A program made the position numbers and the translations under genes. From Nitrospira sp. ND1 (GTDB taxonomy: Bacteria > Nitrospirota > Nitrospiria > Nitrospirales > Nitrospiraceae), in assembly GCF_900170025.1 (NCBI RefSeq), contig NZ_FWEX01000006.1:38668-102667 (forward strand): 64,000 bases of DNA, written 5' to 3'. Shown here in pieces: positions 32,607 through 61,825 of this stretch. The notes under the pieces are model-generated. The model ran no database searches, was not told where the DNA came from, and saw nothing but the letters and a program-made list of their open reading frames with translations. Position 1 is the first letter of the stretch. Each line of letters opens with the position of its first letter.

Positions 32607-32624
32607 ACTAGGGCCATGCCTAGT
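32607..32624 (+). promoter_or_regulatory. Island operator site 1 (upstream of the YtxH gene)
   Basis: ACTAGGGCCATGCCTAGT, an almost perfect palindrome. A TACTGT -10 candidate lies 22 bases on (32646-32651). It is the best match to the shared consensus ACTAGGGCNNTGCCTAGT. The start codon it would serve is at 32758. Confidence 0.7.
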
Positions 32625-49965: not shown

Positions 49966-51921
49966 TTATACCGTTCCTATCGGACCTCGCTCCTCCAAGA
50001 CTGACCTCCCGTTCTTAACCTTGGCGGAATACAACGCTGCCGATTCACCAGGAATGACCCATCCGGTTTCGGTCAAGGGCTCGATGACTCCGGGTCCTCC
50101 GTATTCCGGCGCATCGCTCGACCAGAGCAGGTGCCAGGTTCGCCCATCGGGCGGGGCAAGCAATGGTTCAGGAGCGGGACGATAGTCGCAATCCGCCCCC
50201 AGATTGATGAGCAGCAGCCGATCATCGCCTTGTTTACCGGCATACCGCAGGACGAACGCTGCCGGTCCGATCACGGCGCCATCCAGCCGGTCACGAGCCT
50301 GTTGCGCGATGACCGGATCTTCCCGCCGGAGGCGAAGCAGATCTCGATGCAATCGGACGGACCCGGCATGCCGCTCGCGCTCCGACCAATCGATTTTGGA
50401 ACGCTGGAACACGGCAGGGTCGCGAGGATCAGCGACGGCCGCCTGAGCCCCCGCGGAGGCATAACTCGGAAACTGAGCGAGGAACTGCTTTCTCCCTTGG
50501 TGGATCTGCCGGGCCAATTCGCCAGGTGGAAAGTCGGCGAAGAACAAAAAGGGAGCGGATGCCCCGAACTCCTGCCCCATGAATAACATCGGTGTTTCGG
50601 GAGCCAGCAGGAGGAGCGCCGTCAAGGCGCGATGCAGACCGGGACCGGTCTTCTGGTGCAATCGGTCTCCCCGCAACTGATTGGCCACCTGGTCATGGTT
50701 CTGAAGAAAAAATACAAACTGCTCCGCCGGCTCGTCACGAACGGCCGTTCCACGCGGGCCATCTTGCCATTGATAGCGTTGTCCCTGGTAAAGAAACGCC
50801 CGCTTTACACAGGAAATCAGCTCCTGCGGCCCGCCCCGATAGTCGGTGTAATAGCCTTCGCTTCGGCCCGTGGCGGCTACACGCGCGCTGTGGTGAAAAT
50901 CTTCACTCCAGACCGCATCGAGCCCCCATCCCTGTCCGTCCGTCGGTTGAATCGTACAGACCCACTGCGCCTCACATTCGGCGACCAGGATGATCGATCG
51001 TGCTCCTGCCGCCTTCCTGGCTGCCTGAGACAATTCTGCGATCACGTGCAGAGGCCCCTCATCATGAAATGCGTGGACGGCATCCAGCCTGAGGCCATCG
51101 AGATGAAACTCTTCGATCCAGTAACAAGCATTCTGGATAAAAAACTCCCGCACCTCTTTGGAGCCGGGTCCGTCGAAATTGATCGCTTGTCCCCATTCGT
51201 TGGGATATCGATCGGTGAGGTATTCGTCGCTGAAGGCAGGCAGATAGTTTCCATCCGGTCCCAAATGGTTGTACACAACGTCGAGAATCACACCCAGGCC
51301 TCGCAGATGCGCCTCGTCCACAAACCGTTTCAGGGCATCGGGCTCACCGTACACATGCGCAGGCGCATAGAGGCCGACCCCGTCATAGCCCCAATTCCAT
51401 CGACCGGGAAACTCCGCCACCGGCATGATCTCGATAACGGTGATGCCGAGATCCTTCAGGGTATCGAGACGCGTGACGGCTGCATCGAATGTCCCTTCCG
51501 GGGTAAACGCGCCGATATGCAGCTCATAGATCACCTGCCCATGCATCGTCAGGCCTGGCCACCCGCGATCCCTCCAAACGAATGTGTCCGGGTCGACGAT
51601 CAGCGAAGGCCCATGGGGTCCATCCGGTTGATATCGAGAACAGGGATCCGGATAGAGGCTGTTTCCATCCAAGCGATAGCGGTAGCTCATGCCGGCCTTG
51701 GCCTCCGGGATGACACCGGTCCAGTATCCATCGGCTCCCCTTGTGAGGGGATGAACGGTTCCATGGGGCTCGAGAACGACATCCAGCTGCGCAGGCTTGG
51801 GTGCCCAACAGCGGAATTGCACGCCATCCTGGATGACCTGAGCCCCAAGCCGTTTACGGCCGGCCGACGGGGCTTGATTGCCATGTGGTTGCTCCGGCAC
51901 GACGGTAGCCGACCCGCTCAT
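49966..51921 (-). CDS. treZ: Malto-oligosyltrehalose trehalohydrolase
   Basis: 651 residues from the ATG at 51921 (MSGSATVVPEQPHGN), which has AGGA 8 bases before it; a longer frame (to 52167) is not family-like. N-terminal CBM48-like part (GVQFRCWAPKPAQLDVVLE), then a GH13 barrel with the nucleophile in FHLDGLRLDAVHAF, acid/base Glu in IILVAECE and the third Asp in FLQNHDQVANQ. It frees trehalose from the end made by TreY. No treY gene is in the window. Paired with the debranching enzyme 2 bases downstream. Confidence 0.9.
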   Translation of the reverse strand: MSGSATVVPEQPHGNQAPSAGRKRLGAQVIQDGVQFRCWAPKPAQLDVVLEPHGTVHPLTRGADGYWTGVIPEAKAGMSYRYRLDGNSLYPDPCSRYQPDGPHGPSLIVDPDTFVWRDRGWPGLTMHGQVIYELHIGAFTPEGTFDAAVTRLDTLKDLGITVIEIMPVAEFPGRWNWGYDGVGLYAPAHVYGEPDALKRFVDEAHLRGLGVILDVVYNHLGPDGNYLPAFSDEYLTDRYPNEWGQAINFDGPGSKEVREFFIQNACYWIEEFHLDGLRLDAVHAFHDEGPLHVIAELSQAARKAAGARSIILVAECEAQWVCTIQPTDGQGWGLDAVWSEDFHHSARVAATGRSEGYYTDYRGGPQELISCVKRAFLYQGQRYQWQDGPRGTAVRDEPAEQFVFFLQNHDQVANQLRGDRLHQKTGPGLHRALTALLLLAPETPMLFMGQEFGASAPFLFFADFPPGELARQIHQGRKQFLAQFPSYASAGAQAAVADPRDPAVFQRSKIDWSERERHAGSVRLHRDLLRLRREDPVIAQQARDRLDGAVIGPAAFVLRYAGKQGDDRLLLINLGADCDYRPAPEPLLAPPDGRTWHLLWSSDAPEYGGPGVIEPLTETGWVIPGESAALYSAKVKNGRSVLEERGPIGTV

Positions 51922-52135
51922 GATGCGATTCCTTTGGCAGCCCCGACTGAGAGCAGGATGCGGTTGCGCAAAAATCGCAATACCGCTGCCGCCTCCCTCG
52001 GGAGCTGCTGGGACGAGCCAGGCACTCCGTTGTGGATATTCGGGCCAAGGCTTTTCAGTAACGTGCCGTCCAAATAGGCGTGAACAATTTCCGGATGGAT
52101 CGCTCTGAGGCCGCAGGCTGATTTCATTGGTCGAT

Positions 52136-52996
52136 TCATGCCGTTTTGCGACCGGCCTGTCGCTCACGTTTCGGCAAATGCCGCTTTGGTTGTCCGGACT
52201 GTTGCACGCTTCGCTTGAGGAGTGCCATCAAATCCACGACTTTGGCACGGCCAGGCTTTTCCCCGGCTTCGCCTTTGTCCGGCGCTGTCACCACTTCAGT
52301 TTTTCCGGCCTTGATCCGCTTATTGATCAATCGCATGAGATCGTCGTGATAGGTGTCCTTGTATTGAACCGGCTTCCAGCTATCCGACATTTCCTCCACC
52401 AGTTTGGTCGCCATCTCTATCTCTCGTGGCGTCACGCCTGTCGCCTTTAAGCTCTTCGCCGGAATCTCGAGATCCTTGATCGGCCGAAGTTCGTTGGCAT
52501 AGCGCAGCGTGTTCAACACCATCATCTCACTCCAGGGAATCAGCGCGGCGATATATTGCCTCGTCCTGATCACAACCGTGGCAATGGCAACCTTCCCTGT
52601 CTTGGTCAACGTTTCGCGCAGGAGCGCATAACTCTTTTCTCCCCGTTTATCAGGCGCCAGGTAATACGGCGTCTCAAAGGACGTGGGCGAAATATCTTCC
52701 GCGCGCACGAAGCTCAGGATATCGATGGTCTGCGTGGCCTCGACATTCGCGCGTCGAAAATCTTCGTCCGTCAGAACGACGTAACGGCTTTTGTCATATT
52801 CATACCCTTTGACGATGTGGTCCCACGCCACTTCCTTGCCCGTCTCCTTGTTGTAGCGCTTGAATCCGACCGGTTTCATGTCGCGACGGTCGAGGAGCGT
52901 CAGATCGAAACTGTTCCGGTTTTCGGCCGAATAGAGCACAACAGGAATATTGACGAGCCCAAAACTGATGGATCCTTTCCAGAGCGATCGCGGCAT
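52136..52996 (-). CDS. ku: Ku protein (NHEJ)
   Basis: 286 residues of the bacterial Ku fold. Family phrases are SLWKGSISFGLVNIPVVLYSA at the start, ETGKEVAWDHIVKGYEYDKSRYVVLTDEDF, IDILSFVRAEDISP, YYLAPDKRGEKSYALLRETL and MVLNTLRYANELRP. A Lys/Arg-rich C-terminal tail (about 235-286) is typical of Ku proteins that bind DNA or LigD. It forms a homodimer ring on broken DNA ends and recruits LigD (43536-46148). Confidence 0.95.
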   Translation of the reverse strand: MPRSLWKGSISFGLVNIPVVLYSAENRNSFDLTLLDRRDMKPVGFKRYNKETGKEVAWDHIVKGYEYDKSRYVVLTDEDFRRANVEATQTIDILSFVRAEDISPTSFETPYYLAPDKRGEKSYALLRETLTKTGKVAIATVVIRTRQYIAALIPWSEMMVLNTLRYANELRPIKDLEIPAKSLKATGVTPREIEMATKLVEEMSDSWKPVQYKDTYHDDLMRLINKRIKAGKTEVVTAPDKGEAGEKPGRAKVVDLMALLKRSVQQSGQPKRHLPKRERQAGRKTA

Positions 52997-53497: not shown

Positions 53498-53515
53498 ACT
53501 AGGCCCCTGCCTAGC
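53498..53515 (+). promoter_or_regulatory. Island operator site 6 (upstream of the FAD-Rieske gene)
   Basis: ACTAGGCCCCTGCCTAGC with a TAGTGT -10 candidate at 53537-53542 (22 bases on). The start codon is at 53596. Confidence 0.68.
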
Positions 53516-53595: not shown

Positions 53596-55140
53596 ATGAA
53601 CGACAAGTCTGGACAAAGTGCTTCAATCTGGATGTCACAGGACGTCCCGGCCATGCCCCCGATAGTCTCAGGAGCTCACGCCGACGTGTGCATTGTAGGG
53701 GCTGGAATCGCCGGGCTCACGACGACCTACTGCCTGATGAAGGAGGGCAAATCCATCATCCTGTTGGACGCCGGACAGCCTGGCGGAGGCATGACTCAAC
53801 GGACGACGGCGCACCTGTCGAACGCCCTCGACGATCGTTACGTGGAAATAGAACGACTCCATGGCAAGACCGGCGCGCAACTGGCGGCCCATAGCCACAC
53901 GGCCGCTATTGATTGGATCGACAAGGTTCGATTCGAAGAACGGATCGAGTGCGACTTTACGAGGCTGGACGGTTATCTCTTCGCTCCTTCTGATGATGCC
54001 CGACACCTTATCGAGGAAGAATGGCAGGCCGCGAGACGGGCCGGCGTCGAGGGTGTCGAGCGACTGGACCGGTTGCCGGGGAATATGTTTGAGACCGGTC
54101 CCTGCCTGCGGTTTCCCAGACAGGCCCAATTTCACCCGTTGAAGTACGTGTCGGGTCTGCTCAAGGCCATTCGAGCCGGCGGGGGGCGAGTCTTCAGCAA
54201 TGCCCATGTTACCAGCGTCGACAGCGATACGCCGATCAAACTGGAAACGAGCCAAGGGAGCGTGGTGACTGCAGATGCCGTCGTCATCGCCACCAATACA
54301 CCCATCAACAATCTGCTGACCATTCATACCAAACAAGCGGCCTACATCAGTTATGTGATCGGAGCAACCATACCCAGCGGATCGATCGAACCGGCATTAT
54401 TTTGGGATACGCTCGACCCGTATCATTATGTGCGAATTCATCGGCAGGTATCGGCTCGAGAGGGGGAGCATTCCGTCCTCATCGTGGGCGGCGAGGACCA
54501 CAAGGCCGGACAGGCCGACGACGGAGAAGCCCGCTATGCTCGCCTGGAGGCATGGGCGCGCGAGCATTTTCCCATGATGAACGCCGTCGTATTTCGGTGG
54601 TCCGGACAAGTCATGGAGTCGGTGGATGGCCTAGCCTTCATCGGCCGGAACCCGGGCGACCCAGACAATCTTTACATCGCAACCGGAGACTCCGGTATGG
54701 GCATGACCCATGGCACAATTGCCGGACTGCTCATCACCGATCTCATTATGAAACGCGAGTCGCCTTGGTCCTCGCTGTATGATCCTTCGCGCCGGCCGGT
54801 GCACGCCGCAGGCGAGTTTATCCGCGAATCACTGAACGTCGCAGCTCAATATACCGACTGGGTAACCGGAGGGGATGTTGAAACCGAGGCACAGATTCCA
54901 CGTGGACAGGGAGCGGTGCTGAGAGATGGGCTGACAAAGATGGCGATCTACCGCGATGCCCGGGGAGATCTTCACACATGTTCGGCCGTGTGCCCGCATC
55001 TGGGCTGCATCGTGGCCTGGAACCATGCAGAAAATACGTGGGACTGTCCCTGTCACGGCTCAAGGTTCGACAAATTCGGAAAAGTTCTCAATGGTCCTGC
55101 GACGAGCGACCTCACCCCGCTCAAGCAGGAAGACACCTAG
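53596..55140 (+). CDS. FAD-dependent oxidoreductase fused to a Rieske [2Fe-2S] domain
   Basis: 514 residues. The N-terminal DAO-type flavin domain ([19 protein letters not shown] GxGxxG loop, [20 protein letters not shown], and a late [21 protein letters not shown]) is followed by a C-terminal Rieske domain (about 430-510). The cluster ligands are in CPHLGC and CPCHGSRF. Electrons likely pass between flavin and the iron-sulfur centre. Members of this fused family occur in many bacteria with an unassigned substrate. It is monocistronic and has operator site 6 in its promoter. Confidence 0.9.
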
Positions 55141-55241: not shown

Positions 55242-55259
55242 CCTAGGACACTTCCCAGC
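55242..55259 (+). promoter_or_regulatory. Island operator site 7 (upstream of the HAD-ATPase fusion)
   Basis: CCTAGGACACTTCCCAGC with a TAGGGT -10 candidate at 55282-55287 (23 bases on). The start codon is at 55340. Confidence 0.58.
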
Positions 55260-55339: not shown

Positions 55340-57073
55340 ATGCGTTACTTAGCGCTAGCCGCCGACTATGATGGAACATTGGCGAGTGCAGGCACTGTCG
55401 ACACGGACACCATCCAAGCCATTGAACGCCTGGTGGCCTCGGGTCGAAAACTCATTCTGGTCACCGGACGGGTCTTGCCGGAAATCTTAGAGATTTTTCC
55501 CCAGATATCTCTGTGCGAACGTGTCGTGGCGGAAAATGGCGCCGTCCTCTACCGGCCGGCCACCAAAGAAATCACGCTGCTTGCCCCTCCTCCTCCATCG
55601 GCATTCCTGGAGGAAGTCCAACGTCGCAAGGTAGAGCATCTCACCCTCGGGAATTCGATCGTTGCGACCCGGGTACCGTATGAGACGGTCATCCTGGACA
55701 TCATTCGTGATCTCGGTCTCGAACTGCGCATTATCTTCAACAAGGGCGCAGTGATGGTGCTATCCGATGGCATCAATAAGGCCACCGGGCTGACCGCAGC
55801 GCTCAAGCAGTTGGAATTGTCCCCTCATAACATTGCTGCGATCGGAGACGGAGAAAACGATCATGCCATGCTGACATACTCCGAATATGCCGTGGCCGTG
55901 GAGAATGCCGTTCCGATGTTGAAGGAAACAGCAGATCGCACCACCGTCGGCGATCATGGCCACGGCGTCATCGAGTTGATCAATGAGCTGGTCGAGAACG
56001 ATCTGGCGGTAGCGGATCGATCGGTAGCGCGACATCGGATTGCGCTCGGCACACAGGAGAACGGAGGCGACATCACCTTTCATCCGGCGCGACAAAACCT
56101 CTTGCTTGCCGGCACGTCCGGCAGCGGAAAGTCTACGCTGGCGACGGGACTACTCGAGCGCCTTGGCGAACGAGGTTATCAATTGTGTGTGATCGATCCG
56201 GAGGGGGACTACGAGAATTTTCCACAGGCGATTGTCCTCGGAACTGCACAGGATGGTCCCAGTCACGCCGAAATTCTCACGGCATTGGCCAATCCGAACA
56301 ACCATGTGGTCGTGAACCTTGTGGGACTTCCTCTACAGGACCGGCCCTCATTTTTTCTCACCCTGTTGCCCAAACTTCAGGAACTCCGGTCGAAATCGGG
56401 TCGCCCCCATTGGATGCTGGTCGATGAAACGCATCATCTGTTGCCCGTCGATGGGAACCCCACGGCACCGGGGCTGATGAAGGATTTAGCCGGCATGATT
56501 TACGTCACCGTTCATCCCGACCACATCGAACATTCGATCCTCAAGACCGTGGATATTGTGTTCGCCCTGGGCAAATCGCCGGACGAGACGTTGAAGCAAT
56601 ATTGTGCTGCGATCCAACAGCCGGCTCCGGCCGCAACCGCCGCCCGGCTTCAACCGGGTCGAGCGATTATGTGGAATCGCGCCTCCGGGGAGACGCCTTT
56701 CGTGCTTGAGATCGCACCAAGCACGATCGAACGCCGCCGGCATCGACGGAAATACGCGGAAGGCGAATTGCCTCCGGAGCAAAGTTTTTACTTTCGAGGG
56801 CCGGCCGGACAGCTCAATCTCCGGGCTCACAATTTACTGCTCTTTATGCAGCTCGGGGAGGGCGTCGACCAGGCGACATGGATACATCACCTCCGTTCTC
56901 ACGATTATTCGACGTGGATCAAGCAGGTTATCAAGGATGAGGCGCTTGCGCAGCGCGTACACGACGTGGAACAGCAGGCTCATATGCCCGCAGAAGAGAG
57001 CCGGCAACTGATCCGCAGCGCGATCGAAGAACGGTACACGGTTCCAGCAGGCGGGGATGAACATACTTCTTGA
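55340..57073 (+). CDS. HAD phosphatase - HerA/FtsK-like P-loop ATPase fusion
   Basis: 577 residues. Part one (about 1-225) is a Cof-type HAD phosphatase: D9 and D11 in DYDGT, the Ser/Thr of motif II near 42, K147 in the NKATG motif, and GDGENDHAML at 169-178. Part two (about 230-460) is a P-loop ATPase with Walker A GTSGSGKST (258-266) and Walker B WMLVDETHH (D362, E363). Similar ATPase parts occur in VirD4/HerA-like proteins. The last about 110 residues are helical and unassigned. Cytoplasmic. The pairing of a small-molecule phosphatase with a pump-like ATPase is not one whose job I know. Under operator site 7. Confidence 0.82.
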   Translation: MRYLALAADYDGTLASAGTVDTDTIQAIERLVASGRKLILVTGRVLPEILEIFPQISLCERVVAENGAVLYRPATKEITLLAPPPPSAFLEEVQRRKVEHLTLGNSIVATRVPYETVILDIIRDLGLELRIIFNKGAVMVLSDGINKATGLTAALKQLELSPHNIAAIGDGENDHAMLTYSEYAVAVENAVPMLKETADRTTVGDHGHGVIELINELVENDLAVADRSVARHRIALGTQENGGDITFHPARQNLLLAGTSGSGKSTLATGLLERLGERGYQLCVIDPEGDYENFPQAIVLGTAQDGPSHAEILTALANPNNHVVVNLVGLPLQDRPSFFLTLLPKLQELRSKSGRPHWMLVDETHHLLPVDGNPTAPGLMKDLAGMIYVTVHPDHIEHSILKTVDIVFALGKSPDETLKQYCAAIQQPAPAATAARLQPGRAIMWNRASGETPFVLEIAPSTIERRRHRRKYAEGELPPEQSFYFRGPAGQLNLRAHNLLLFMQLGEGVDQATWIHHLRSHDYSTWIKQVIKDEALAQRVHDVEQQAHMPAEESRQLIRSAIEERYTVPAGGDEHTS

Positions 57074-58316: not shown

Positions 58317-58427
58317 ACGGTCGCGTACCAGGCCTCGGTACTGTGAGTATCGAATGCGATGAGCTGCAAAATCCTGCAAGGACGGCATTCCTGCAACACC
58401 ATGTTCATCTTACCAAGGAGGAAATCG

Positions 58428-58865
58428 ATGAAGACCGCACTGCATTCGCTGCTCGCACTGGCGCTTGTTTCACTGGCTGCCTGCTCCAACTCACCGACCG
58501 CGTCGAAAACCCGCTCAGAAATGGAGGCAGGCACGAAGACCGGTATGGTCAAGAACATCGTCATCAAGGAAACGATCGTCCCCGATGCCTTAACGGTACG
58601 GGCGGGCGACGAGGTTCGATGGATCAATCAGAGACAAGACTCCGTCACCGTGACGATCGATGAACCGCTGGAACACAACGTCTCCTGCCGGAACGGATTT
58701 TCCAAGGCGATGGGAATGGGCGTAGACAACTCCACGACCTTATCGAGCAATGAGACCGCTGGTCTCTGTTTTAGCCGGATCGGCACCGTGAAGTATTCCG
58801 TACGACCGGCGGACGAAACCAAGACCAGTATGGCTAACACCCATGGCTCGATCACCGTTCAGTAA
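58428..58865 (+). CDS. Cupredoxin-like lipoprotein
   Basis: 145 residues with a signal and lipobox (LALVSLAAC) and a cupredoxin-type beta core: IKETIVPDALTVRAGDEVRWINQRQDSVTVTID, then CRNGF and a late TVKYSVRP. The core loop of a classical blue-copper site (Cys-His-Met) is not clear, so copper binding is uncertain. AAGGAGG stands before the ATG. A strong hairpin follows the stop. Confidence 0.82.
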   Translation: MKTALHSLLALALVSLAACSNSPTASKTRSEMEAGTKTGMVKNIVIKETIVPDALTVRAGDEVRWINQRQDSVTVTIDEPLEHNVSCRNGFSKAMGMGVDNSTTLSSNETAGLCFSRIGTVKYSVRPADETKTSMANTHGSITVQ

Positions 58866-58957: not shown

Positions 58958-61153
58958 TCATGAGGGACTGGCGAGTCTAATTTCTCTGGCCCAATGGCGA
59001 TGCATCTCGATAGCCTTTATGAAGCGGGCTGCGATCTGCTTGGGCGAAGAGTCCGGCGCCAGAACGATTCCTGAATCCTGCGACCAGTCTTTGGGCGTCT
59101 GTCTGGTTTTGCTTCCATGTTCCGCCTCCGGGTAGGCTGCCCCGACCGCCGCTTCAAAAAAGGCAACCCCCTTCCCCGTCGCGGCAATCGCCTTGCAATG
59201 CAGGTAGGCGTCCTGAACGAACATTCTCGCTTTGGGGGTTCGCAACAATGCGCTGACGCTTTGTTCACCGCCTGGAATGTAGACCGCATCGAATAACACC
59301 GATCCCGTCGTCAACAGGCTGAAATCGATCTTCAGCTCACTTCCGTTCGCAGCCTTGAGGCTTCCCGAACGGGTCGCCACAATCTTGCCCTGCCCTCCGG
59401 CGGCGACCAAGGCCATCTGCATTCCCTTGACCGCCTCGCCATCGACTCCATCGGCAACCAGAATCGCCACCTTTCTGGTTTGAATGCCTTCCTTTGGAGC
59501 CAACACCATGCTCAGCGCCGCAGACTTGTCCAGCGAAGTCACAGCGCGCTTGGGTTGAAAGTCCTTCGGATCACCGTCGGCGGGGATACTCAAATTGAGG
59601 AGCCCCTCGATCCTCTTCACCGGCATACCCAAGCCCTCCGCGACCCGCCCAGCCAGGCCCTTGTCGATCTGGGACAGCATGCCGACCATTCGTTCCCGAA
59701 TCGGGAGGTTCTCGACCTTGCCTAGTTCAAACTGCAACGCCTGCACCAAATGCTCTTGCTCCGGTTCAGACTGACTTCGCCAAAACAGCGCAGCCTGACT
59801 GAAATGGTCGAAAAAGCTCTTGCTCCGTTCTCGCACTTTGCTGCCGGGCAGCCGTTCGGCATAACTCAGGAACCCGCCCATATCCGCCTTGGCCTGCATG
59901 GGACAACCACCCCCCAATGTATTCGGTTGGTAACTCACCGGCCCGGAATTGATCGTCTGCCGCATATGGCCGTCGCGTTGATTGTTATGCAACGGCGCCA
60001 GCGGTCGATTGATGGGAATCTCATGGAAGTTCGGTCCGCCCAGTCGAATGAGTTGAGTGTCCGTATATGAGAAGAGTCGACCTTGTAACAGCGGATCGTT
60101 CGTGAAATCGATGCCGGGAACGAGGTGGCCGGGATGGAACGCCACCTGTTCGGTTTCGGCAAAAAAATTATCCGGATTCCGATCGAGCGTCATCTTGCCG
60201 ATTCGAACCACCGGCACCAGTTCCTCGGGAATGAGCTTCGTCGGATCCAGAAGATCGAAGTCGAACTTCTGTTCGTCCTTCTCCTCCACAATCTGCACCC
60301 CGAGCTCCCATTCCGGGTACTGCCCCGCCTCGATCGCCTCCCACAAATCACGCCGGTGAAAATCGGGATCCAAGCCGGAAATTTTCTGCGCCTCGTCCCA
60401 CAAGAGTGAATGTACACCGAGGAGCGGCTTCCAGTGAAATTTCACGAACCGTCCGACGCCCTTGGCATTCACGAAGCGAAAGGTATGCACCCCGAAGCCT
60501 TCCATCATGCGGAAACTCCGGGGGATGGCCCGATCCGACATGACCCACATGATCATGTGCATGGATTCCGGCATCAGGGAGATAAAGTCCCAGAACGTGT
60601 CATGCGCCGAGGCCGCCTGCGGCATCTCATGATGAGGTTCCGGTTTCACGGCATGGACCAGATCCGGGAATTTCACCGCATCCTGGATGAAGAAGACCGG
60701 GATGTTGTTGCCCACCAGGTCGTAATTCCCTTCCTCCGTGTAAAACTTCACGGCGAAGCCGCGCGCATCCCGCGCCAGATCACTGGAACCTCGGGACCCG
60801 GCGACGGTCGAAAAACGCACAAAGACCGGGGTCTTGACCTGCGGGTCCTGTAAAAATTTTGCCCTCGTCAGCGATGCGAGCGACTTATACACTTGGAAAT
60901 AGCCGTGCGCGGCGGCGCCCCTGGCATGCACCACCCTCTCGGGAATACGCTCATGGTCGAAATGCGTGATTTTTTCCCGTAGGATGAAATCTTCCAGCAA
61001 TGTCGGGCCGCGAGCCCCCGCCTTGAGGCTGTTCTGATCATCGTTGATGCGCAGGCCTTGATCGGTGGTCAGAAAGTGATCGCCGGACTTCTCCCGCGCG
61101 CTGTCAAGGGCAGCGGTTTTCTCATTCTCCCGCTTGGAACGATCTTTGGGCAT
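58958..61153 (-). CDS. katE: Large-subunit catalase HPII (KatE-type)
   Basis: 731 residues from the ATG at 61153 ([10 protein letters not shown]), with GGAGG 8 bases before; E. coli HPII is 753. The catalase core has catalytic His in [12 protein letters not shown], Asn in [21 protein letters not shown] and the haem Tyr in RLFSYTDTQ. The C-terminal flavodoxin/DJ-1-like domain (about 570-725; [12 protein letters not shown] ... [14 protein letters not shown]) marks the large-subunit clade 2 type. It destroys H2O2 in the cytoplasm. Its start is 36 bases after the hemerythrin stop, so it probably shares the hemerythrin promoter. Confidence 0.95.
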
Positions 61154-61188
61154 GGCACAGTCCTCCCCTGGTCGGCCTTCGCCGGCAT

Positions 61189-61689
61189 CTACCGAATTGT
61201 TTTCCTGGATGGGCGGGTGCCGGTTTTTCGACCGGATGCTTTGGCCAGCAACGTCTCCTTGCGCTTCATGACACTGGCCTCTAACGATTCCCAATCGATG
61301 TCGCACTCTTCGGCTTTCGGAAACATTTCACCTTCTTCTTCCTCGATATGGTGCTTCACCAGTTCACTTAAAACGCTGAACTTGGCCTGAAATTTCTCGT
61401 CGCCAGGTTTGAGTTTCTTCAATTCGGCGATGAGCACATGGACGAGGTGGTGTTCCTCAATCGCCTCGTTCATCATGTCCGCTGCATCCACCTCCGCTCG
61501 AATTGCCGGATAAATCAAACGTTCTTCCAGGTCGGCATGAATTTCCAGCTCCTGGATCGCCGTTTTTGCAATCTCGCCCCGCTCCCGTCCCTCCGCCGAT
61601 TCGAAATCCTCAAACAGCTTCTTGACCTTGTCGTGATCCTCTTTCAGCATTTCGAAAACCGTCGAAACAAATCCTGCCGCTCGTGCCAT
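61189..61689 (-). CDS. Hemerythrin-domain protein 2
   Basis: 166 residues from MARAAGFVSTVFEMLKEDHD; AAAGGAG lies 6 bases before this ATG. Ligand positions: EDHDKVKKLFEDFE, HADLEERLIYP, EEHHLVHVLIAEL and KHHIEEEEGEMFP. The C-terminus is Lys/Arg-rich. It binds a diiron centre for O2, NO or peroxide handling and is coupled with the catalase gene. The operator-like site 10 lies 70 bases upstream. Confidence 0.92.
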   Translation of the reverse strand: MARAAGFVSTVFEMLKEDHDKVKKLFEDFESAEGRERGEIAKTAIQELEIHADLEERLIYPAIRAEVDAADMMNEAIEEHHLVHVLIAELKKLKPGDEKFQAKFSVLSELVKHHIEEEEGEMFPKAEECDIDWESLEASVMKRKETLLAKASGRKTGTRPSRKTIR

Positions 61690-61807: not shown

Positions 61808-61825
61808 ACTAGGGCTACTCCTAGT
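61808..61825 (+). promoter_or_regulatory. Island operator site 11 (upstream of the 79-aa zinc-ribbon gene)
   Basis: ACTAGGGCTACTCCTAGT, close to perfect. A TATGCT -10 candidate lies at 61847-61852 (22 bases on). The start codon is at 61896. Sites 10 and 11 stand 31 bases apart in the intergenic region of two divergent genes. Confidence 0.68.

Follow-up and report, generated by a model that had tools for sequence, protein, structure and literature searches.

A three-domain protein joining a HAD-IIB phosphatase, a HerA-like P-loop ATPase and a predicted OrfY/DUF5752-type domain in a stress and trehalose gene island of Nitrospira

We analysed a 64,000-nt stretch of the genome of Nitrospira sp. 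ND1 (hereafter the window), in which an ORF of 577 aa at 55340..57073 (+ strand) is a genuine gene and a member of a protein family, as seen from its Pfam matches, its relatives and their alignment. The encoded protein, HAD-HerA-OrfY, consists of three domains. The N-terminal domain (residues 1-220; 55340..55999, + strand) is a PH1421-like HAD-IIB phosphatase domain by its Pfam and NCBIfam matches, structural match and catalytic residues. It is followed by an FtsK/HerA-type P-loop ATPase core (about residues 229-466; 56024..56737, + strand) and by a C-terminal domain (about residues 467-570; 56738..57049, + strand) that corresponds, on profile and structure comparison, to half an OrfY/DUF5752 unit. 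An AlphaFold model of the 577-aa monomer, built with 62 sequences, has a pLDDT of 89.1 and a pTM of 0.78. The current annotation of this three-domain protein is only 'HAD hydrolase'. An earlier note on this DNA described a two-part protein; its HAD and ATPase parts stand, but it overlooked the C-terminal domain. It also stated that the pairing has no assigned function, and we likewise found no function for it in the searchable literature and no title or abstract on the HAD-HerA-OrfY fusion in the openly searchable literature (subscription papers and preprints lie outside both searches).

The neighbours of the gene in the window are LigD, GDE, TreZ, a Ku-like gene, DAO-Rieske, DUF6279, catalase and hemerythrin genes. 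TreZ (malto-oligosyltrehalose trehalohydrolase; 49966..52167, - strand) lies in the same island and scores above the cut-off of TIGR02402, and the Ku-like gene (52136..52996, - strand), which is named by its sequence and its position near LigD, has homologues in four Nitrospira loci. The longest TreZ frame begins with a GTG at 52167 and shares positions 52136-52167 with the end of the Ku-like gene; translation of TreZ probably starts further inside this frame. The gene for DAO-Rieske, an FAD-dependent oxidoreductase with a Rieske domain (53596..55140, + strand), shares an operator-like site with the HAD-HerA-OrfY gene. On the other side are a large catalase (58958..61306, - strand), assigned by family match, and, upstream of it, the hemerythrin gene (61740, - strand). 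The presence of catalase, hemerythrin and DAO-Rieske bears out the stress-linked setting proposed for the gene.

An alignment of the upstream regions of nine orthologues exposed an inverted repeat, CTAGG-N6-CCTAG, that was absent from the list of a DNA repeat scan. In the window, the repeat lies with one mismatch at 55243..55258, 81 nt before the ATG of the HAD-HerA-OrfY gene, and in exact form at 53499..53514, 81 nt before the ATG of DAO-Rieske, and at 61809..61824, 68 nt before the hemerythrin gene. It may be the motif that the earlier note called the island operator, a claim that would then hold for this gene. The window contains seven sites with at most one mismatch, compared to 0.6 expected, and none of 100 shuffles reached this number. 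The genome has eight exact sites, four of them within 69 kb of contig C6 (C6:71275-140137; 1.5% of the genome), a clustering with a binomial probability of 4e-6 for a span picked after the fact. A small gene beside TreY, PRC-barrel-like on our reading of its sequence, also has a site, about 48 nt ahead of its longest frame. The sites of the cluster include those at 32608 in the window and at C6:140122 in the genome. Among the 12 Nitrospira copies whose 5' end is available, the start has an exact site no more than 140 nt away in eight; of the others, the window copy has its one-mismatch site and three have no exact site there. The repeat is a putative operator that the HAD-HerA-OrfY gene shares with DAO-Rieske, hemerythrin and the PRC-barrel-like gene, and it clusters in one stress and trehalose island.

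The HAD domain carries the complete Cof-type motif set that had been claimed for it (D9, D11, T42, K147, D170 and D174), and its four HAD motifs (DxD, T/S, K and GDxxND) and C2 cap fold are those of HAD-IIB (Cof/SPP-type) phosphatases. It matches Pfam Hydrolase_3 (E 1.8e-30), the Cof and phosphoglycolate-phosphatase models of NCBIfam (E ~1e-30) and the HAD-IIB model TIGR01484 (86.5 bits, cut-off 41.8). With the archaeal phosphoglycolate phosphatase model TIGR01487 it reaches 104.8 bits, short of the equivalog cut-off of 122.75, and it stays under the cut-off of each NCBIfam equivalog model listed. Conservation was measured on an alignment of 74 sequences, namely 79 full-length candidates minus six with one stop in the matched stretch, plus the window protein. 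D9, D11, K147, D170 and D174 are present in 74/74 sequences, and position 42 holds T in 72 sequences and S in the other two. A PDB sequence search found PH1421 (1wr8; E 5.7e-16), with HerA not among the matches, and residues 1-224 of the model superimpose on 1wr8 with Z 27.9 and an rmsd of 2.4 over 222 aligned residues (28% identity). Lower on the structure list are mannosyl-3-phosphoglycerate phosphatase (3zty; Z 21.7, 208 aligned, rmsd 2.8) and trehalose-6-phosphate phosphatase (6upb; Z 21.3, 209 aligned, rmsd 2.6), and sucrose-phosphate phosphatase is likewise among the structural matches. The HAD-IIB phosphatases PH1421 and TA0175 (1wr8 and 1kyt) share the fold and the catalytic residues of the window domain, but they are single-domain proteins, whereas the window HAD is part of a three-domain chain and under the equivalog cut-offs.

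The second half of the claimed pairing, a HerA-type ATPase in the same chain, is also confirmed. The DUF87/HerA Pfam model identifies the central domain with 29.7 bits (cut-off 23.2), and the Walker residues are kept, with K264 of Walker A in 74/74 sequences, D362 of Walker B in 73/74 and E363 in 74/74. Residues 230-466 of the model align with HerA 9x1m (Z 21.4, 225 aligned, rmsd 2.6), and further structure matches are the HerA entries 4d2i (Z 21.1) and 8xav (Z 21.0) and VirB4 (4ag5; Z 20.0). A profile comparison of 36 of the 74 ATPase cores with four HerA-type proteins taken from Nitrospirota genomes gives a probability of 93.8 and an E value of 1.7e-7. HerA proteins (4d2i, 9x1m and SIR2-HerA 8woc) and the window protein have in common the P-loop core, Walker A, a DPxG(D/E)Y motif and a DE Walker B, with Z of 20-21. 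The differences are also clear. In the profile alignment, the HerA EGRK segment faces an eight-residue gap of the window family, and HerA TQRP reads TVHP, while the E, G, R, K, Q and P of these segments are invariant in all four Nitrospirota HerA-type proteins. We take the EGRK arginine to be the HerA arginine finger. At positions 364-395 of the family, arginine occurs in at most 10/74 sequences at any position, and R335 (74/74), R350 (71/74) and R355 (70/74), which are conserved elsewhere in the domain, could be candidates for another mechanism. The accessible parts of PMC9960219, PMC12977600, PMC9599734 and PMC5365140 do not mention a HerA arginine finger by name; the domain layout of HerA given in PMC9960219 includes a HAS barrel and an inserted helix bundle. 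Neither has a counterpart in the window protein, whose HAD domain precedes the core and fills residues 1-224. The 230-466 core aligns with a far longer stretch of HerA, and about 70 residues separate DPEGDY from Walker B.

These results do not bear out the 'ring' and 'pump-type' wording of the earlier description. Because the HAS barrel and helix bundle are absent and EGRK is deleted in the HerA alignment, a DNA-pumping ring formed by this domain seems doubtful, although the loss of one motif does not prove the loss of ring or pump activity. Judged by its modelled structure, the ATPase is HerA-like in fold and not a standard HerA. The genome has no second ATPase of this type, the next match having an E value of 0.0014 over 41 residues. 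A point against this assignment is that, in a HMMER search of the PDB, the ATPase profile matches APS kinase (7yq0; E 1.3e-5 over 82 residues) ahead of HerA (8wiv; E 0.0018); ABC transporters score alike, and the P-loop profile matches are partly generic.

The match of the C-terminus to Pfam DUF5752 (PF19027) is weak in the full protein (17.8 bits) and is 21.4 bits for the domain alone, both under the gathering cut-off of 23, which some members of a divergent subfamily B exceed (29.8 bits for G121); 20 of 36 family members match DUF5752 at E <= 0.01. A comparison by hhalign of 36 of the 74 C-terminal domains with 17 of 20 fetched DUF5752 proteins gives a probability of 96.1 and an E value of 3.3e-9, and the aligned region is the second half of DUF5752. 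The DUF5752 profile finds OrfY of Thermoproteus tenax in the PDB (4cso; E 2.4e-41), and the C-terminal-domain profile finds the same entry with an E value of 0.009. Folded alone, the domain has a pLDDT of 86.9 and matches 4cso with Z 10.9 (95 aligned, rmsd 2.2), the next row having Z 5.0; Foldseek gives only E 0.81 for 4cso, and a mostly helical domain calls for caution. These profile and model comparisons indicate that the final ~110 residues represent half an OrfY/DUF5752 unit, with the C-terminal ~100 residues equivalent to the second half of this double unit. The tail is more than a linker because its mean majority frequency over the 74 sequences is 0.68, compared to 0.72 for the HAD domain and 0.59 for the ATPase. 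The depositors of 4cso label OrfY a transcription factor, and a search of the literature for OrfY and DUF5752, with subscription papers and preprints outside its range, found no paper.

DUF5752 matches occur in 37 of 118 Nitrospirota genomes. We fetched the best 20 of 40 places (L131-L150) with 1.5-kb flanks, a set that comes from one phylum and is partly redundant. A trehalose synthase adjoins DUF5752 in all 20 loci (TreS in eight, a TreT-like GT4 in 12), MscS occurs in six and an OtsB-like HAD in three. An NCBIfam scan of 24 DUF5752 neighbours found TIGR02456 in seven (best E 1e-258) and the TreT model in eight (best E 5e-127); the single TreT-model member detailed falls under the curated cut-off of its model. 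L142, L144 and L148 encode DUF5752-MscS fusions, and it is these that the OtsB-like HAD flanks. The window protein differs from OrfY/DUF5752 in having a half unit only, in its fusion to an ATPase-phosphatase and in not adjoining TreS or TreT. A theme akin to these loci is known from T. tenax, in which one operon (msc-gt-tpsp) encodes a mechanosensitive channel, a GT4 and a trehalose-phosphate synthase/phosphatase that also assemble into a complex, with a HAD-type trehalose-phosphate phosphatase and a link to osmotic stress (PMC3634074, in the part available). Unlike HAD-HerA-OrfY, that complex is made of separate proteins and has no HerA-type ATPase, and OrfY is unmentioned in the same part of PMC3634074.

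The family is widespread. Matches are found in 15 of 41 genomes of the genus and order of the window; one of them (G038; 3.7e-4) falls in an exonuclease VII-like frame and was rejected as a chance match. Within the genus, 14 of 25 genomes, including that of the window, carry the family, one of them (G020) with only subfamily B and a fragment with a stop, and 21 of 198 genomes match across the phylum. When one genome per species was scanned, 80 loci out of 519 confirmed relatives were listed, with 46-90% identity and nearly full length except for L034 (to residue 509). By record titles and tree groups, the listed relatives include members of Nitrospirota, Planctomycetota, Cyanobacteriota, Melainabacteria, Acidobacteriota, Pseudomonadota, Chloroflexota, Myxococcota, Rokubacteria, Fibrobacterota, Verrucomicrobiota, Bacteroidota and Thermodesulfobacteriota, and full-length relatives span more than 10 bacterial phyla. 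In a quick tree, the five Nitrospira rows of the window's subfamily form one clade (100), and phyla are partly mixed. On plasmids, matches that span at least 80% of the query were found at 11 places, in records of Cyanobacteria, Rhizobiales, Burkholderiaceae and Nonomuraea. Viral contigs contain no relative, and a viral origin was rejected on that ground. Subfamily B has the same architecture at 30% identity. The earlier note had considered that the two parts might be separate genes in close relatives; in 10 of 10 genomes, all picked as fusion carriers so that the count tests for extra stand-alone copies, the HAD domain occurs only in the fused frame. A plasmid of Nostoc (C052) has a HAD-only copy (L026:8001-8666) that is 56% identical to the HAD domain. 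Three Nitrospirota copies (L119, L124 and L125) are broken by single frame changes; in the G173 copy, a one-base frame change separates the HAD from the ATPase at their junction, and in those of G001 and G003 the frame changes fall within the ATPase. These changes could reflect sequencing error as well as true decay.

We also compared the gene neighbourhoods of the family. TreZ lies 1.5-5.7 kb from the gene in nine of the 10 Nitrospira genomes with both on one contig and 41 kb away in the tenth, and TreY lies 35-67 kb away in 8/8 Nitrospira genomes compared. TreZ is present in 14/14 carriers and 5/11 non-carriers (Fisher p 0.0026) and TreY in 13/14 and 6/11 (p 0.056), by a test that ignores kinship. 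The plasmid copies lie among stress genes, including Dps, hemerythrin, Mn-catalase, trehalose-6-phosphate synthase, amylo-1,6-glucosidase and GT4 genes. Outside Nitrospira, homologues of TreS, TreY, TreZ-like proteins or OtsA occur within the fetched flanks of only four of 83 loci (L021, L050, L073 and L095). The adjoining trehalose synthase of the 20 DUF5752 loci is not a feature of this gene: in Nitrospira only TreZ lies within 6 kb, and trehalose genes are rare beside it elsewhere. A scan of 125 of 217 listed near neighbours, which left out the window, L028-L031 and 11 further loci, found 146 families; a conserved operon partner was rejected because no family occurs in more than four of the 125. 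In the two subfamily B loci scanned for hydrogenase genes (L120 and L129), hypF precedes the gene and a hydrogenase subunit or hypC is near; elsewhere subfamily B has CBS-domain (L130) and lipoprotein/OmpA (L122) neighbours. The rarity of trehalose genes outside Nitrospira and the hydrogenase setting of subfamily B weaken an exclusive role in trehalose metabolism.

The reading that we consider most likely, and hold only tentatively, is that the protein is an ATP-gated, stress-regulated sugar-phosphate phosphatase of compatible-solute (trehalose-type) metabolism. The N-terminal HAD would hydrolyse a phosphorylated small-molecule metabolite, with a sugar phosphate as the most likely substrate. 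The central P-loop domain would bind ATP, perhaps with slow hydrolysis, and could serve the HAD as a nucleotide-dependent switch or as an assembly platform, not as a DNA pump. The OrfY-type domain may bind a sugar or a partner protein and in this way link the enzyme to the trehalose or osmolyte status of the cell. We infer the substrate, the ATP gating and the role of the OrfY-type domain from the fully conserved HAD set (74/74), the sugar-phosphatase structure matches, the OrfY homology together with the trehalose synthases beside DUF5752, the proximity of TreZ and TreY, the co-occurrence of TreZ with the gene, the common operator, the plasmid copies among stress genes and the deletion of the HerA EGRK segment. 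The rare trehalose neighbours outside Nitrospira, the lack of a common neighbour family, the hydrogenase genes beside subfamily B, the 21.4 bits of the C-terminal domain (below 23) and a TreZ association that ignores phylogeny argue against this reading.

A housecleaning phosphatase ranks second and is a possible, weaker candidate. The HAD domain would clear 2-phosphoglycolate or oxidation-damaged phosphometabolites under oxidative stress, the other domains would regulate or localise it, and there would be no special tie to trehalose. The top sequence models (Cof and archaeal phosphoglycolate phosphatase), the top structure (PH1421), the catalase, hemerythrin and DAO-Rieske neighbours, two of which have the same operator, and a gene context that varies across phyla are consistent with such a role. 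It leaves unexplained an OrfY-type domain that is conserved about as well as the HAD (0.68 vs 0.72), and the phosphoglycolate model is under its cut-off (104.8 vs 122.75 bits).

Two further readings concern the P-loop domain, and both seem unlikely. PFK2/FBPase2 is a kinase-phosphatase that sets a metabolite level, and by analogy the P-loop domain might phosphorylate what the HAD dephosphorylates. One chain holds both domains and the ATPase profile prefers APS kinase over HerA, but the fold matches are of HerA and VirB4 types, Walker B with its catalytic glutamate (DE, 73-74/74) is an ATPase signature, and the P-loop profile matches are partly generic. No more probable is an inert P-loop part, a degenerate HerA scaffold that merely multimerises the HAD of a plain phosphatase; the lost EGRK segment and the HAD-only Nostoc copy would fit, but a (nearly) invariant Walker A/B across phyla is unexpected for an inert domain, and the fusion is kept in 10/10 genomes. 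Least likely is a DNA-linked machine in which a HerA-type translocase and a HAD end-phosphatase ready broken DNA ends for the Ku and LigD of the island: the HerA-like fold (Z 21 to 9x1m, 4d2i and 8xav) and the occurrence of Ku-like genes and LigD both in the window and in related Nitrospira loci suggest it, but among 87 family loci Ku-like genes occur in just four, all Nitrospira, and LigD in three, the protein lacks EGRK, HAS barrel and helix bundle, and known DNA-end HAD phosphatases are capless while the structural matches of this HAD are capped small-molecule HADs along the whole of residues 1-224.

If ATP gates the phosphatase, as the sugar-phosphate reading proposes, a HerA-type domain would be at work in metabolism and not on DNA. 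A wider idea, which we offer as speculation, is that OrfY/DUF5752 senses trehalose or turgor and comes in three formats: as a protein of its own next to trehalose synthases, on MscS and on an ATP-driven phosphatase. HAD-HerA-OrfY would then be a new regulated osmolyte enzyme, in which a HerA-type domain stripped of its translocation features serves as a nucleotide switch for a metabolic phosphatase. The three-domain protein, with about 50% identity across phyla, is widespread yet apparently unstudied, and it provides a testable handle on DUF5752/OrfY, which has a solved structure, a strict trehalose neighbourhood (20 loci) and no function in the searchable literature. A minor feature of the same region is a 168-aa lipoprotein-like ORF at 58359-58865 of the window, divergent from the DUF6279 gene, which has no Pfam match and by eye looks cupredoxin-like.
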